Assembly (NCBI RefSeq): GCF_001552075.1
Contig: NZ_BCQM01000001.1
Span: 744,001-808,000 of the forward strand
Source of the DNA: Arthrobacter luteolus NBRC 107841
Lineage (GTDB): Bacteria; Actinomycetota; Actinomycetes; Actinomycetales; Micrococcaceae
Direction of reading: 5' to 3'
DNA length: 64,000 nucleotides
The position numbers and the translations under genes are program-made. Position 1 is the first letter of the stretch. Every line of letters begins with the position of its first letter. The notes beneath the pieces are model-generated. The model searched no databases. It had not been told where the DNA came from and saw nothing but the letters and a program-made list of their open reading frames with translations. Below, one piece after another: positions 2,209 through 6,150 of the stretch.

Positions 2209-2214
2209 TACTCT
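2209..2214 (+). promoter_or_regulatory. -10 element TACTCT giving a leaderless start for the PBP gene
   Basis: TACTCT is followed by exactly six bases and then the ATG at 2221. No Shine-Dalgarno is visible. Transcription would begin at or next to the A of the start codon. The same geometry precedes the paralogue at 4246, and it fixes the start at 2221 rather than at an upstream in-frame ATG at 2182. Confidence 0.6.
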
Positions 2215-2220
2215 GTGCGG

Positions 2221-4158
2221 ATGGGGAAACATCGCTTGCTCGCATCTGTCCTATCCATGTCCATACTGGGGCTCTCACTGGCGGCCTGCTCCGCGGACGA
2301 CGGCCCACAGCCCGAAGAGGCAGCCAAATCACTCGCTGAAGGACTCTCGCAGCTGGACGTCTCCGGCGCGAAGTTCCTGGACTCCACCGCGGAGGAAGCA
2401 AACCTCCGGCTGGCGGAATGGACTTCCGGCATGGCGCCGCTGAAACCAACCGTCAGCGTAGCCTCCGTGGAGGAAATCTCCGACGACGAAGCCACCGCCA
2501 CGCTCAGCTATGTGTGGGATGTGAACGCCTCCGATGAGGACTTCAGCTATGACACCACCGTTGACCTGCGGCGGGACGACGAGGGGGCTTGGCAGGTCAG
2601 TTTCGCCCCCACCGCGGTGCATCCCCAGCTGGCCTCCAGCGACCACCTGGTCCGAGAGGTAGCCCCGGTTCCCCGGGGTGAAATTCATGGTGCGGACGGG
2701 CAGGTACTGGTGACCCAGCGCGCGGTCTGGCGTGTCGGAATCGACAAGTCCTGGATCACCGAAGCTGAGTTCGAGTCCTCCGCTGCCGCCCTGGCCGGGT
2801 TCCTGGAACTGGACCCGGCTGCCTATTCCGCGCAGGTCCTGGCTTCCGGGCCCCAGGCCTTCGTCGAAGCCATCACGCTCCGGCAGGACAGTTCGTCCCC
2901 GGAGTTCCAGAGCGAGGTAGCGGCGATCCCCGGCGCCGCGGCCATCCCGGGCACTCTCGCGCTGGCACCCACCCGAACCTTCGCCCGGGCACTGCTCGGA
3001 TCTGTGGGCGAGGCAACTGCGGAACTGATCGAGAAATCCAACGGCGAACTCTCCGCGGGAGACCAGACCGGGCTCTCCGGCCTGCAGCAGCAGTACGACT
3101 CCCAGCTCAGGGGCGTTGACGGCGTCCAAATCCGGACGGTCACTGCCGAGAACGTAGCCTCAGCACCGCTCTTCACCTCTGCGGGCGTGGTTGCCGATCC
3201 GCTGCAGACCACGCTGGACACCCGGCTGCAGACCCTGGCCGAGTCAGTCCTGGCAGATGAGCCCTCCGCCTCGGCGCTGGTGGCCATCCAGCCCTCCACC
3301 GGCAACCTCCTGGCCGTGGCCAACGGTCCCGGCAGCGAAGGAGCCCAGACGGCCCTGCTCGGGCAGTATGCCCCTGGCTCCACCTTCAAGCTGGCCACAA
3401 CCCTGGCGATGCTCCGCTCCGGGGCCACCCCCGATTCGGTGGTCTCCTGTCCCGAGGAGCTCAACGCGGACGGCCGGATGTTCAACAACGCCAGCACCTA
3501 CCCTGCGCAGTTCCTCGGGGACATCCCGCTGCGCCAGGCGTTCGCGCAGTCCTGCAACACCGCCTTCATCAACGCCCGCGGAACGGTGGCCCAGCCGGAC
3601 CTTGCCGCCGCAGCGCAGGCGCTGGGCCTGGGCGTGGACACCGTCATCGGCACCCCCGCGTACTTCGGTTCCGTGCCGGAAACGGCAGAAGGAACCCTGC
3701 ACGCCGCCTCGATGATCGGGCAGGGCGAAGTGCTGGTCTCCCCGCTGGCACTGGCCGTCGCCGGAGCCTCCGTGGCCAAGGGCGAACGGGTCTCCCCACT
3801 GCTGGTCAAAGCACCTGACGCCGCGGCCGCAGGTGAGACGGCCTCTGCGTCGGCCTCCCCTTCCAGCTCCGCCGGTTCCCCCTCCGTGACCACGGCCGAA
3901 GCGTCCACCCTCCGGGAAATGATGCGGGCGGTCGTGACCGACGGCGGTGTCCAGCTGCTCCAGGCTGTTCCCGGCGAACCTGTACTGGCCAAGACCGGCA
4001 CTGCTGAATTCGGCAACGAAACTCCGCCGCGCACCCACGCCTGGGTTGTCGCGGTCCAGGGTGATCTCGCCGTCGCACTGTTCATTGAGGAGGGCGAACT
4101 GGGCTCAACGTCCGGCGGCCCGGTCATGAAGGCGTTCCTGGACGGCTTGGCCGGCTGA
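2221..4158 (+). CDS. Lipoprotein penicillin-binding protein, intact transpeptidase
   Basis: A 645-residue class B-type PBP that should cross-link peptidoglycan outside the membrane. The N-terminus is a lipoprotein signal ending in LSLAAC, so it is probably lipid-anchored. Residues about 30-140 look like the NTF2-like MecA N-terminal domain, followed by a dimerisation-type region and the transpeptidase domain. The catalytic motifs are complete: S387-T-F-K390 (PGSTFK), S444-C-N446 and K591-T-G593. A Ser/Ala-rich insert (ASASASPSSSAGS) lies shortly before the KTG motif. I chose the start at 2221 because it aligns with the paralogue and has a -10 element six bases upstream. A tandem duplicate follows at 4246. 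No other cell-wall gene is adjacent. Confidence 0.9.
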   Translation: MGKHRLLASVLSMSILGLSLAACSADDGPQPEEAAKSLAEGLSQLDVSGAKFLDSTAEEANLRLAEWTSGMAPLKPTVSVASVEEISDDEATATLSYVWDVNASDEDFSYDTTVDLRRDDEGAWQVSFAPTAVHPQLASSDHLVREVAPVPRGEIHGADGQVLVTQRAVWRVGIDKSWITEAEFESSAAALAGFLELDPAAYSAQVLASGPQAFVEAITLRQDSSSPEFQSEVAAIPGAAAIPGTLALAPTRTFARALLGSVGEATAELIEKSNGELSAGDQTGLSGLQQQYDSQLRGVDGVQIRTVTAENVASAPLFTSAGVVADPLQTTLDTRLQTLAESVLADEPSASALVAIQPSTGNLLAVANGPGSEGAQTALLGQYAPGSTFKLATTLAMLRSGATPDSVVSCPEELNADGRMFNNASTYPAQFLGDIPLRQAFAQSCNTAFINARGTVAQPDLAAAAQALGLGVDTVIGTPAYFGSVPETAEGTLHAASMIGQGEVLVSPLALAVAGASVAKGERVSPLLVKAPDAAAAGETASASASPSSSAGSPSVTTAEASTLREMMRAVVTDGGVQLLQAVPGEPVLAKTGTAEFGNETPPRTHAWVVAVQGDLAVALFIEEGELGSTSGGPVMKAFLDGLAG

Positions 4159-4181
4159 GCCTGTACCAAAGAAATGCAGGG

Positions 4182-4210
4182 ACGGCCGCCGCACTTTGAG
4201 CGGCGGCCGT
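4182..4210 (+). terminator. GC-rich hairpin between the two PBP genes
   Basis: A perfect 11-bp stem ACGGCCGCCGC / GCGGCGGCCGT has a 7-nt loop (ACTTTGA). No T tract follows. It sits just after the first PBP stop codon and before the promoter of the second gene, so it may separate the two transcripts. Confidence 0.55.
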
Positions 4211-4233
4211 GTCCAGATCCCGGTCCCCGCCGA

Positions 4234-4239
4234 TAGCCT
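4234..4239 (+). promoter_or_regulatory. -10 element TAGCCT giving a leaderless start for the second PBP
   Basis: TAGCCT is followed by six bases and then the ATG at 4246, the same geometry as for the upstream paralogue. No Shine-Dalgarno is visible. Confidence 0.58.
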
Positions 4240-4245
4240 GACCGG

Positions 4246-6150
4246 ATGGTGAAACCCCGCCTGCTCGCATCCGCTCTAACCCTTTCCGTCGTGGCACTGT
4301 CCCTGGCTGCCTGTTCGCCGGAGGAGGGGCCGGGACCCGAAACCGCCGCGGAGACCCTCGCCACCGGGCTCTCCGCGCTGGACGTAACGGGCAGCTCGTT
4401 CTCCGACTCCTCCGTCGAAGCCGTCAACGGTATGCTCGGGCATCTTGTCTCCGGCATGGCCCCGCTGAAACCGACAGTGACCGTCACGGACATAGAAGAG
4501 ACTTCCGGTTCGCAGGCAACTGCCACGCTCAACTACGTCTGGGATGTCAATGCTGCTGCGGAAGACTACAGCTACGACACTTCGGTAACCCTGGACCGCG
4601 ACGAAGAGGATGCCTGGCAGGTCCGGTTTACGTCCACCACGGTGCACCCGGAGCTCGACCCCGGGGAGCGGCTGGTGCGCACGACCGCACCCGTGCACCG
4701 TGGGGACATTCTTGGTGCCGGCGGAGCCGTCTTGATGGCGGACCGGGCAGTCTGGCGCGTCGGGATCGACAAGGCCGTGCTGACCGAGAAGGAGTATACC
4801 TCGTCCGCCTTCTACCTGTCCCAGTTCCTGAACATGGACATCGATGCTTTCACGGCACAGGTCCAGGCGGCCGGTCCCAAGGATTTCGTGGACGCGGTTA
4901 CCGTGCGGCAGGACAGTGTTCCGGCGAACTTCGAGTCGGAGATCGCCACCGTTCCAGGCGCCGCAGCGCTGTCGGAAGTCCGGTCGCTGACGCAGCCGGG
5001 CTCCTTCACCGGAGCACTGTTGGGATCCGTTGGAGAAGCCACACCGGAACTGATCGAAAAGTCCGGCGGCGCGCTGGCACCCGGTGACCAGGCCGGGCTG
5101 TCCGGATTGCAGCTGGAATACGACTCCCAGCTCAGGGGCGCCGACGCCGTTACGGTCCACATTGCCGGGACCGACAACGTGGCATCGGCGCCGCTGTTTG
5201 AGACCGACGGCGAACCCGGAAAGCCGCTCCAGACGACCCTGGCTGCCGGCATCCAGGCCCAGGCCGAGTCAGTCCTGAAGGATGAACCGTCCGCAGCGGC
5301 CCTGGTGGCGGTCCAGCCCTCCACCGGCAATCTCCTGGCTGTGGCCAACGGCCCGGGAAGCGGCGGTGCGCAGACGGCACTGCTTGGCCAGTACTCTCCG
5401 GGGGCCGCGTTCCAGCTCGTCACCGCCCTGGCACTGCTGCGGACCGGATCCACACCGGAGACCACGGTTTCCTGCCCGGCGGACGTGAACGTGGATGGCC
5501 GGAGCTTTACCAACCCCGGTACATATCCCAGCGGATACCTGGGCGGAATCACCTTCGCCGAAGCCTTCGCTCAATCCTGCAGCACCGCATTCGTCAACGC
5601 CCGGGACTCGGTTCCCCCATCCGGGCTCGCCTCCGCCGCTGCCAGCCTGGGAGTGGGCGTGGACGCCGCCATCGGCACTCCCGCCTCCTTTGGTTCAGTC
5701 CCGGCGGCAGCTGACGGGTCGCTGCATGCTGCCTCGATGATCGGGCAGGGCGAGGTCCTGATGTCGCCGCTCGCGCTGGCCATTGCCGGCGCCTCCGTGG
5801 CCAAGGGCGAACGGGTGCAGCCCGCGCTTGTCTCTCCGTCCGGGGACGGCGGGGCGGAAAACACTGCTGGCCCGGAGCCGATGACCAGCGATGAGGCCGG
5901 GACGCTGCGGGAACTGATGCGGGGCGTCGTCACCGGTGGCACCGGCGAACTGCTCCAGGACGTGCCCGGGGGGCCGGTGCTGGCCAAAAACGGCACCGCC
6001 GATTCCGTCAGCGAAACCCCGCCGGGCACCCATGCCTGGGTGGTCGCCATTCATGGTGATCTCGCCGTCGCACTGTTCATTGAGAACGCGGAGCAGGGAT
6101 CCCCCGCAGAGGCAGTGATGCACGCTTTCCTTGACGGTCTGGCCGGCTGA
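4246..6150 (+). CDS. Catalytically degenerate PBP paralogue (pseudo-transpeptidase lipoprotein)
   Basis: A 634-residue tandem paralogue of the gene at 2221. It shares the lipobox (LSLAAC), the MecA-N-like domain and the transpeptidase fold, with long stretches nearly identical (for example VQPSTGNLLAVANGPGS). All three catalytic motifs are changed. The SxxK motif reads A387-A-F-Q390 (PGAAFQ), so both the nucleophilic Ser and the general-base Lys are lost. SxN reads S444-C-S446, and KTG reads K581-N-G583. The reading frame is intact over its full length with no stop codons or frameshifts, so the protein is probably made but cannot acylate. It may act as a regulatory or scaffolding partner, or as a decoy for beta-lactams; the role is inferred. 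It has its own -10 element. Confidence 0.88.
   Translation: MVKPRLLASALTLSVVALSLAACSPEEGPGPETAAETLATGLSALDVTGSSFSDSSVEAVNGMLGHLVSGMAPLKPTVTVTDIEETSGSQATATLNYVWDVNAAAEDYSYDTSVTLDRDEEDAWQVRFTSTTVHPELDPGERLVRTTAPVHRGDILGAGGAVLMADRAVWRVGIDKAVLTEKEYTSSAFYLSQFLNMDIDAFTAQVQAAGPKDFVDAVTVRQDSVPANFESEIATVPGAAALSEVRSLTQPGSFTGALLGSVGEATPELIEKSGGALAPGDQAGLSGLQLEYDSQLRGADAVTVHIAGTDNVASAPLFETDGEPGKPLQTTLAAGIQAQAESVLKDEPSAAALVAVQPSTGNLLAVANGPGSGGAQTALLGQYSPGAAFQLVTALALLRTGSTPETTVSCPADVNVDGRSFTNPGTYPSGYLGGITFAEAFAQSCSTAFVNARDSVPPSGLASAAASLGVGVDAAIGTPASFGSVPAAADGSLHAASMIGQGEVLMSPLALAIAGASVAKGERVQPALVSPSGDGGAENTAGPEPMTSDEAGTLRELMRGVVTGGTGELLQDVPGGPVLAKNGTADSVSETPPGTHAWVVAIHGDLAVALFIENAEQGSPAEAVMHAFLDGLAG

Follow-up and report, generated by a model that had tools for sequence, protein, structure and literature searches.

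Why would a bacterium keep, directly behind an intact gene for a penicillin-binding protein (PBP), a second full-length copy whose catalytic motifs have been lost? The question is raised by two genes of Arthrobacter luteolus NBRC 107841, in the 64,000-nucleotide stretch analysed here (contig NZ_BCQM01000001.1, positions 744,001 to 808,000; hereafter the window): gene A and its paralogue, gene B, which encode lipoprotein class B PBPs and lie in tandem on the same strand with a gap of 87 bp. By motif loss B appears to be catalytically dead, and yet its sequence evolution indicates that it is held by purifying selection. Comparisons across the genus support selection for a non-catalytic function, which may be that of a partner or of a scaffold.

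Motif loss and constraint in gene B

B and A are 61% identical over their full length (395/645, BLASTP), and MecA_N, PBP_dimer and Transpeptidase matches exceed the Pfam cut-offs in both proteins, each carrying a signal peptide and an LAAC lipobox with Cys23 (read from the sequence). The NCBIfam MecA and PBP4(5) equivalogs gave 35/112 bits for A and 34/91 bits for B, far below their cut-offs of 750/700. A sequence-only reading of the window had assigned STFK, SCN and KTG to the first copy, and all three were found at the expected residues (Table 1); it had also described the 634-codon frame, signal peptide, lipobox and fold of the second copy as preserved, which agrees with its open frame, Cys23 and three Pfam domains. 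Its statement that B has AAFQ, SCS and KNG at the aligned sites, with Ser, Lys, Asn and Thr lost, was confirmed, with the nuance that SxN retains its Ser in B, and KTG its Lys and Gly. B lacks the motif set of an active transpeptidase (SxxK, SxN, KTG), and the possibility that both copies are active was rejected by this loss.

A was present in each of the 29 genus genomes searched and a second, B-like gene in 13, eight times in tandem with A and five times elsewhere in the genome. The motifs of A were intact in 29/29 (counting KSG of G015 and G016 as KTG), and none of the 13 B has a working SxxK: the Lys is lost from all of them, and the Ser is kept in eight and lost in five. SxN reads SCS or SCD in three B and is missing in the other ten, which carry a 43-53-residue deletion around the site; KTG reads KNG in three, and KTG or KSG in none. 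The exact AAFQ letters therefore vary, and what is conserved of the state proposed earlier is the loss of the SxxK Lys; relatives of B with intact motifs were not found among the 13. Two of the deleted orthologues (L038, L036) gave PBP_dimer and Transpeptidase matches above the cut-offs and no MecA_N match. A search with two peptide patterns for B, strict enough that misses are possible, returned 9 loci, all in Arthrobacter (A. gallicola, A. pullicola, A. koreensis, A. citreus, A. gandavensis and other strains).

The ratio dN/dS (omega) was estimated under a one-ratio GY codon model, the divergences within the tandem clade being saturated; fits at omega = 1 held kappa at its fitted value. The frameshifted copy G022_B was used neither in the trees nor in the omega fits nor in counting fixed differences, and G012_B, near-identical to G005_B, was omitted from the main tandem fit and from the same count. 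In this test, which the sequence-only reading had asked for, omega of B lies well below 1. It spans 0.05-0.16 in the tandem clade: 0.076 in the N-terminal half and 0.159 in the transpeptidase half in the main fit, compared with 0.085 and 0.062 in A of the same species, and 0.045 and 0.123 in the B of G000, G005 and G012, compared with 0.106 and 0.057 in A. In four B that stand away from A (the transferred copies of the next section) it was 0.262 and 0.371, against 0.098 and 0.084 in the A of their hosts. For all partitions of B the fit at omega = 1 was rejected (2dlnL 27.7 to 969). The NTF2-like part has 50/116 invariant columns in 11 B and 52/116 in 7 A, the dimer part 68/190 and 101/190, and the transpeptidase domain 51/315 and 208/315; together with omega, these values indicate that constraint in B has left the catalytic half and now bears mainly on the N-terminal one. 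In a neutral simulation at the divergence of the tandem clade (0.39 substitutions/site) about 8 stops were expected and 0/300 copies stayed open. The transpeptidase fold of B was predicted intact by AlphaFold, and the dead domain is drifting, though probably still folded.

Both genes are preceded by a TANNNT box; leaderless promoters of actinobacteria usually take this form, with the box 6 nt before an ATG. The box occupies exactly this position in 41/42 A and B genes as called; in the exception, G028_A, the start was called two codons too early, and the box is present before its next ATG. As a control, 7/691 plus-strand ATG triplets of the window have the box at the same spacing, and TANNNT starts at 0.17% of window positions. 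This suggests that A and B are each transcribed separately, as leaderless messages. The promoter of its own that had been proposed for B would thus be this conserved box; a scan of the A-B gap for sigma-70 -35/-10 promoters found none. The hairpin in the gap was considered as a conserved regulator and rejected, other tandem genomes being without the same hairpin.

Table 1 Features of the A-B locus, with positions in the window.
Feature	Positions	Strand	Description
Box before A	2209..2214	+	TACTCT, -10-like TANNNT box, 6 nt upstream of the A start codon; putative leaderless promoter element
Gene A	2221..4158	+	Intact lipoprotein class B PBP, MecA_N/PBP_dimer/Transpeptidase, 645 aa
A SxxK	3379..3390	+	STFK, residues 387-390
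A SxN	3550..3558	+	SCN, residues 444-446
A KTG	3991..3999	+	KTG, residues 591-593
Gap hairpin	4182..4210	+	GC-rich, 11-bp stem, 7-nt loop, no T run
Box before B	4234..4239	+	TAGCCT, -10-like box, 6 nt upstream of the B start codon; putative leaderless promoter element of its own
Gene B	4246..6150	+	Lipoprotein class B PBP paralogue of A, catalytically dead by motif loss, 634 aa
B lipobox	4312..4314	+	Cys23, conserved in 13/13 B
B at SxxK site	5404..5415	+	AAFQ; nucleophile Ser and Lys gone
B at SxN site	5575..5583	+	SCS; Asn gone
B at KTG site	5986..5994	+	KNG; Thr gone

PF00905 was matched at six places in the genome: A, B, one gene each at C5 and C6, taken to be of the PbpA and FtsI types from their size and neighbours, and two longer genes, taken on the same grounds to be class A PBPs. 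The two SEDS genes of the genome are also at C5 and C6, 0.6 and 6 kb from the PF00905 genes there; A and B look auxiliary, since they have no SEDS gene of their own.

Origin and movement of B

In a tree of A and B (residues 25-403, 382 columns, 41 rows) B forms one clade with a support of 100/100, which joins the A of the eight tandem species at 100/99; its position among these A is weakly supported. B thus arose when A was duplicated within the tandem-bearing clade. The locus order GMC oxidoreductase - A - B - YccF (Pfam names) is found in the window and in 5/6 further tandem loci read; the tandem locus of G001 has YccF after B and no GMC gene before A. At the 13 A loci analysed outside the tandem clade (flanks of 1.5 kb) YccF follows A without B in 11, the GMC gene also being visible in 4, and the remaining two, from other genera, have neither.

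The five non-tandem B are located just past a tRNA-Gly gene, between trigger-factor and Fpg/Nei-type genes, at collinear loci (tRNAs were scanned in four of the five). Each is preceded by a fragmentary A 3' end, of 31-133 bases in the best match, and this match is to a tandem-clade A in 5/5, better than to the A of the host, which is 59-62% identical to the A of the window. The transferred B group in the tree beside those of G004, G006 and G011 (G022_B not included), and their dS among four hosts (0.09-0.19) is below that of A, clpP2, tig, nei, rpiB and pepN in 6/6 host pairs. The A scrap, the tree position and the low dS thus indicate that a piece formed by an A tail plus B moved from a tandem-clade donor; a single ancestral insertion homogenised later and several transfers fit the sequences alike. 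The tRNA-Gly (TCC) site that took up B and the A scrap corresponds to L041:6160-8340 and to the same place in L042-L045. About 2.7 kb of extra DNA follow B in L044, whose copy (G022_B, L044:5675-7435) is frameshifted near the C-terminus.

Dead homologues outside the genus

The survey outside the genus included 89 proteins from 70 genomes, a non-random set of MecA_N matches, second copies and full-length matches in which "dead" was scored solely by the absence of S..K. S..K was absent in 16/89, in four other families: G313 and G330 (f15), G552 (f22), G452, G474 and G507 (f31), and ten f35 genomes; twelve more homologues fetched later were all intact. On a tree built without the motif columns the dead state requires five changes (5-6 among the bootstrap trees), some of which might be regains. 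The hypothesis of one dead clade, defined by motif state, was rejected (p-AU 1.6e-6). This careful tree holds 67/103 rows, 20 of them dead; the 36 rows dropped as near-copies or long branches include 3 dead ones. A quick tree of all 103 rows also gave five changes, two dead f15 rows being flagged as meeting long branches. An intact homologue was found alongside the dead copy in 29/29 genomes (13 Arthrobacter, G313, G330, G552, three f31 and ten f35); the two adjoin in G313 and G552, and are at different places in f31, f35 and G330.

The dead copies differ in their state of erosion. G313 has an independent tandem (L071:3376-6165), an intact PBP followed by a degenerate one with GPVFG/GCV/LAG, the latter showing no PBP_dimer match and a MecA_N match below the cut-off. 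A very eroded gene without the SxN region follows an intact MecA_N-type PBP in G552 (L135:1236-2936); the protein L135_5 of this genome has no Pfam match and was assigned by its hidden Markov model match and tree place. The second MecA_N PBP of f31 (L124, L125, L126) has Thr for the SxxK Ser (GTAFK), SCN, and ATT or ATN instead of KTG; these three proteins, which keep Lys and SCN, are the least certain dead calls. The gene before the dead copy in L124, on the same strand, encodes a trypsin-like/PDZ protease.

The dead MecA_N PBP of f35 (L136-L144) lies directly after ftsE-ftsX-smpB in 9/9 genomes with flank, the tenth ending at a contig end; the names come from Pfam matches in one f35 genome to FtsX, to SmpB and, for the gene interpreted as FtsE, to an ABC ATPase that precedes FtsX. 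No other dead copy occupies this position. The gene order points to a possible link between the pseudo-PBP and FtsEX; a literature search limited to listings found nothing on an ftsEX-smpB-PBP association.

It is, in our judgement, an even call whether dead MecA_N-type lipoprotein class B PBPs constitute a recurrent class of the Actinomycetes, unnamed in the sense that literature searches, with subscription papers mostly outside their scope, found no named pseudo-PBP. Such a class would have lost catalysis about five times, always with an active homologue kept, and its members would now act as regulators of wall synthesis or remodelling, the f35 gene order suggesting a coupling to FtsEX-dependent cleavage and the Arthrobacter copy being portable. 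If this recurrence is true, a class of proteins that do not bind penicillin stands among the actinobacterial "penicillin-binding protein" annotations, and the link to ftsEX offers a concrete hypothesis on how wall synthesis is coupled to wall cleavage.

Possible roles of B and known systems

We favour, as the reasonably likely reading, that B is a pseudoenzyme duplicated from A and kept as a non-catalytic scaffold or allosteric subunit, or as a regulator, of peptidoglycan synthesis. After the duplication B would have lost transpeptidase chemistry and, with it, penicillin acylation; its lipid would anchor the protein on the outer face of the membrane, and its N-terminal NTF2-like and pedestal half would work as scaffold, allosteric subunit or competitor within those peptidoglycan synthase complexes in which active auxiliary PBPs, for instance A, also take part. 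B would thus tune wall synthesis, making no cross-links itself, and would not have to bind the A found in the same lineage.

Several points weigh against this reading. B is absent from 16 of the 29 genomes of the genus, and no dead second copy was found at E <= 1e-60 in other genera of the family (295 genomes, 32 genera, 24 genomes in this genus; up to 4 candidates scored per genome), a search in which two matches outside the genus occurred only in G063 and G148, all 4 proteins being motif-intact, and the motifs of most single-copy genes outside the genus were not read. One of the 13 frames, that of G022_B, is broken. The transferred copies show relaxed omega (0.26-0.37), and for them an unbroken frame says little by itself, 25% of such younger copies staying open under neutral simulation at 0.05 and 6% at 0.10 substitutions/site; omega carries the case. 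The AlphaFold alignments included intact paralogues, which may have biased the fold predicted for the dead domain. In published work, the class B PBP and predicted lipoprotein PBP-lipo (Rv2864c / MAB_3167c) needs its catalytic Ser in M. abscessus, where the dead S364A variant fails to rescue the loss of PBP-lipo (PMC9170245), and in C. difficile a dead version of PBP3 or SpoVD can have harmful effects (PMC12713402).

B might alternatively be the obligate partner of A, a prozyme-like subunit which binds and activates or stabilises it via the PBP_dimer/NTF2 domains. Enzyme activation by a dead paralogue is a known principle, B was born as a tandem copy of A and is still beside it in 8/8 tandem-clade genomes, and in G313 and G552, from two further lineages, a dead homologue likewise lies next to an intact one. 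However, five genomes hold B far from A, combining a B of foreign lineage with a divergent A; B moved without the A gene, with only its 3' scrap, and is under selection in the new hosts; and the separate positions in f31, f35 and G330 also speak against a strict pairing. Only two fixed A/B differences were found in the N-terminal half, so that no special interface is visible. We consider an obligate heteromer unlikely, and rank the scaffold or allosteric role above it because B moved and stayed without its cognate A. The function that the sequence-only reading had proposed is accordingly retained as regards selection, its partner variant being the part that the A-less transfer qualifies.

A niche trait would fit the patchy spread of B (13/29), its recent movement between species and its tRNA-side location, as expected for a surface decoy or receptor acting as a sink for a bacteriocin, a phage or a competitor molecule and not as part of wall synthesis. 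This is improbable: the neighbours are housekeeping-type by Pfam (GMC oxidoreductase, YccF, trigger factor, Fpg/Nei glycosylase; no defence-system search was made), a covalent beta-lactam sink is unexpected without the catalytic pair, and the N-terminal half of such PBPs is membrane-proximal and contacts the synthase. Catalysis through displaced residues, for instance as an esterase, is about as improbable. Evolution has adapted the PBP/beta-lactamase fold to other reactions, the fold of B is predicted intact and 8/13 B keep the SxxK Ser, but the Lys is gone in 13/13, the SxN region is missing in 10, 51/315 transpeptidase columns are invariant, and no new conserved set of catalytic type was seen in the B alignment.

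Decay of a duplicate towards a pseudogene, in line with the lost motifs, the gap across SxN in 10/13 B, the transpeptidase omega raised relative to A and the frameshift of G022_B (pairwise omega with this copy reaches 0.57-0.69 overall, inflated by the frameshift), is the least probable reading, very unlikely as foreseen by the sequence-only reading, and was rejected by the omega, invariant-column and simulation results: omega is well below 1 in all fitted partitions, 12/13 frames are unbroken, the NTF2 part matches that of A in invariance, the co-transferred A scrap shrank to 31-133 bases in its best match and B stayed open in 4/5 of these loci, and the frameshift may be a sequencing or assembly error, no genome in the genus set being less complete than G022 (94%), which has short alignments of nei and pepN too.

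If B is a non-catalytic scaffold or allosteric subunit, as we favour, it bears on the open question whether class B PBPs have important roles apart from catalysis. The two studies compared made use of dead mutants obtained by engineering. With B, structure is uncoupled from catalysis in a dead PBP that occurs naturally, is under selection and can be transferred, so that no mutagenesis is needed, and its N-terminal NTF2/pedestal half is indicated as the part that does the work.

Compared with known systems, A looks like the PBP-lipo type by architecture; PBP-lipo depends on its catalytic Ser, whereas B is naturally without the motifs. The best solved relatives of B include PBP5 and PBP2a (phmmer), and the group formed by PBP2a (MecA), Enterococcus PBP5 and B. 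subtilis PBP3 combines MecA_N, PBP_dimer and Transpeptidase domains, as in B. The members of this group are active low-affinity transpeptidases; B is without the catalytic pair. Prozymes share with B the course of duplication, active-site loss and retention, the known example, a trypanosome metabolic enzyme, being reportedly activated by its dead paralogue. Missing motifs in actinobacterial PBPs are already in print and are not new in themselves: in the review PMC6273383, 13/100 class A PBPs of Streptomyces lack SxxK and are taken to function as PBPs, and tandem co-oriented class B PBPs of the SCO3156/SCO3157 type are described. The former mostly keep SxN and KTG, unlike B, a class B protein which has lost all three motifs; the latter arrangement is matched by the tandem class B pairs of g108 (taken to be Streptomyces), where, unlike in A/B, S..K is kept in both copies of 8/8 pairs. 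Functional parallels, in which a PBP without catalysis serves division as a structural or allosteric part, come from two other bacteria: dead PBP 2B of B. subtilis still supports division if PBP 3 is present (PMC5656894), and in C. difficile the auxiliary factor PBP3 promotes polar division independently of its own catalytic activity, although its catalytic mutant harms sporulation (PMC12713402). Dead PBP 2B, PBP3 and SpoVD are engineered point mutants of active enzymes, whereas B is natural, fixed and more eroded.

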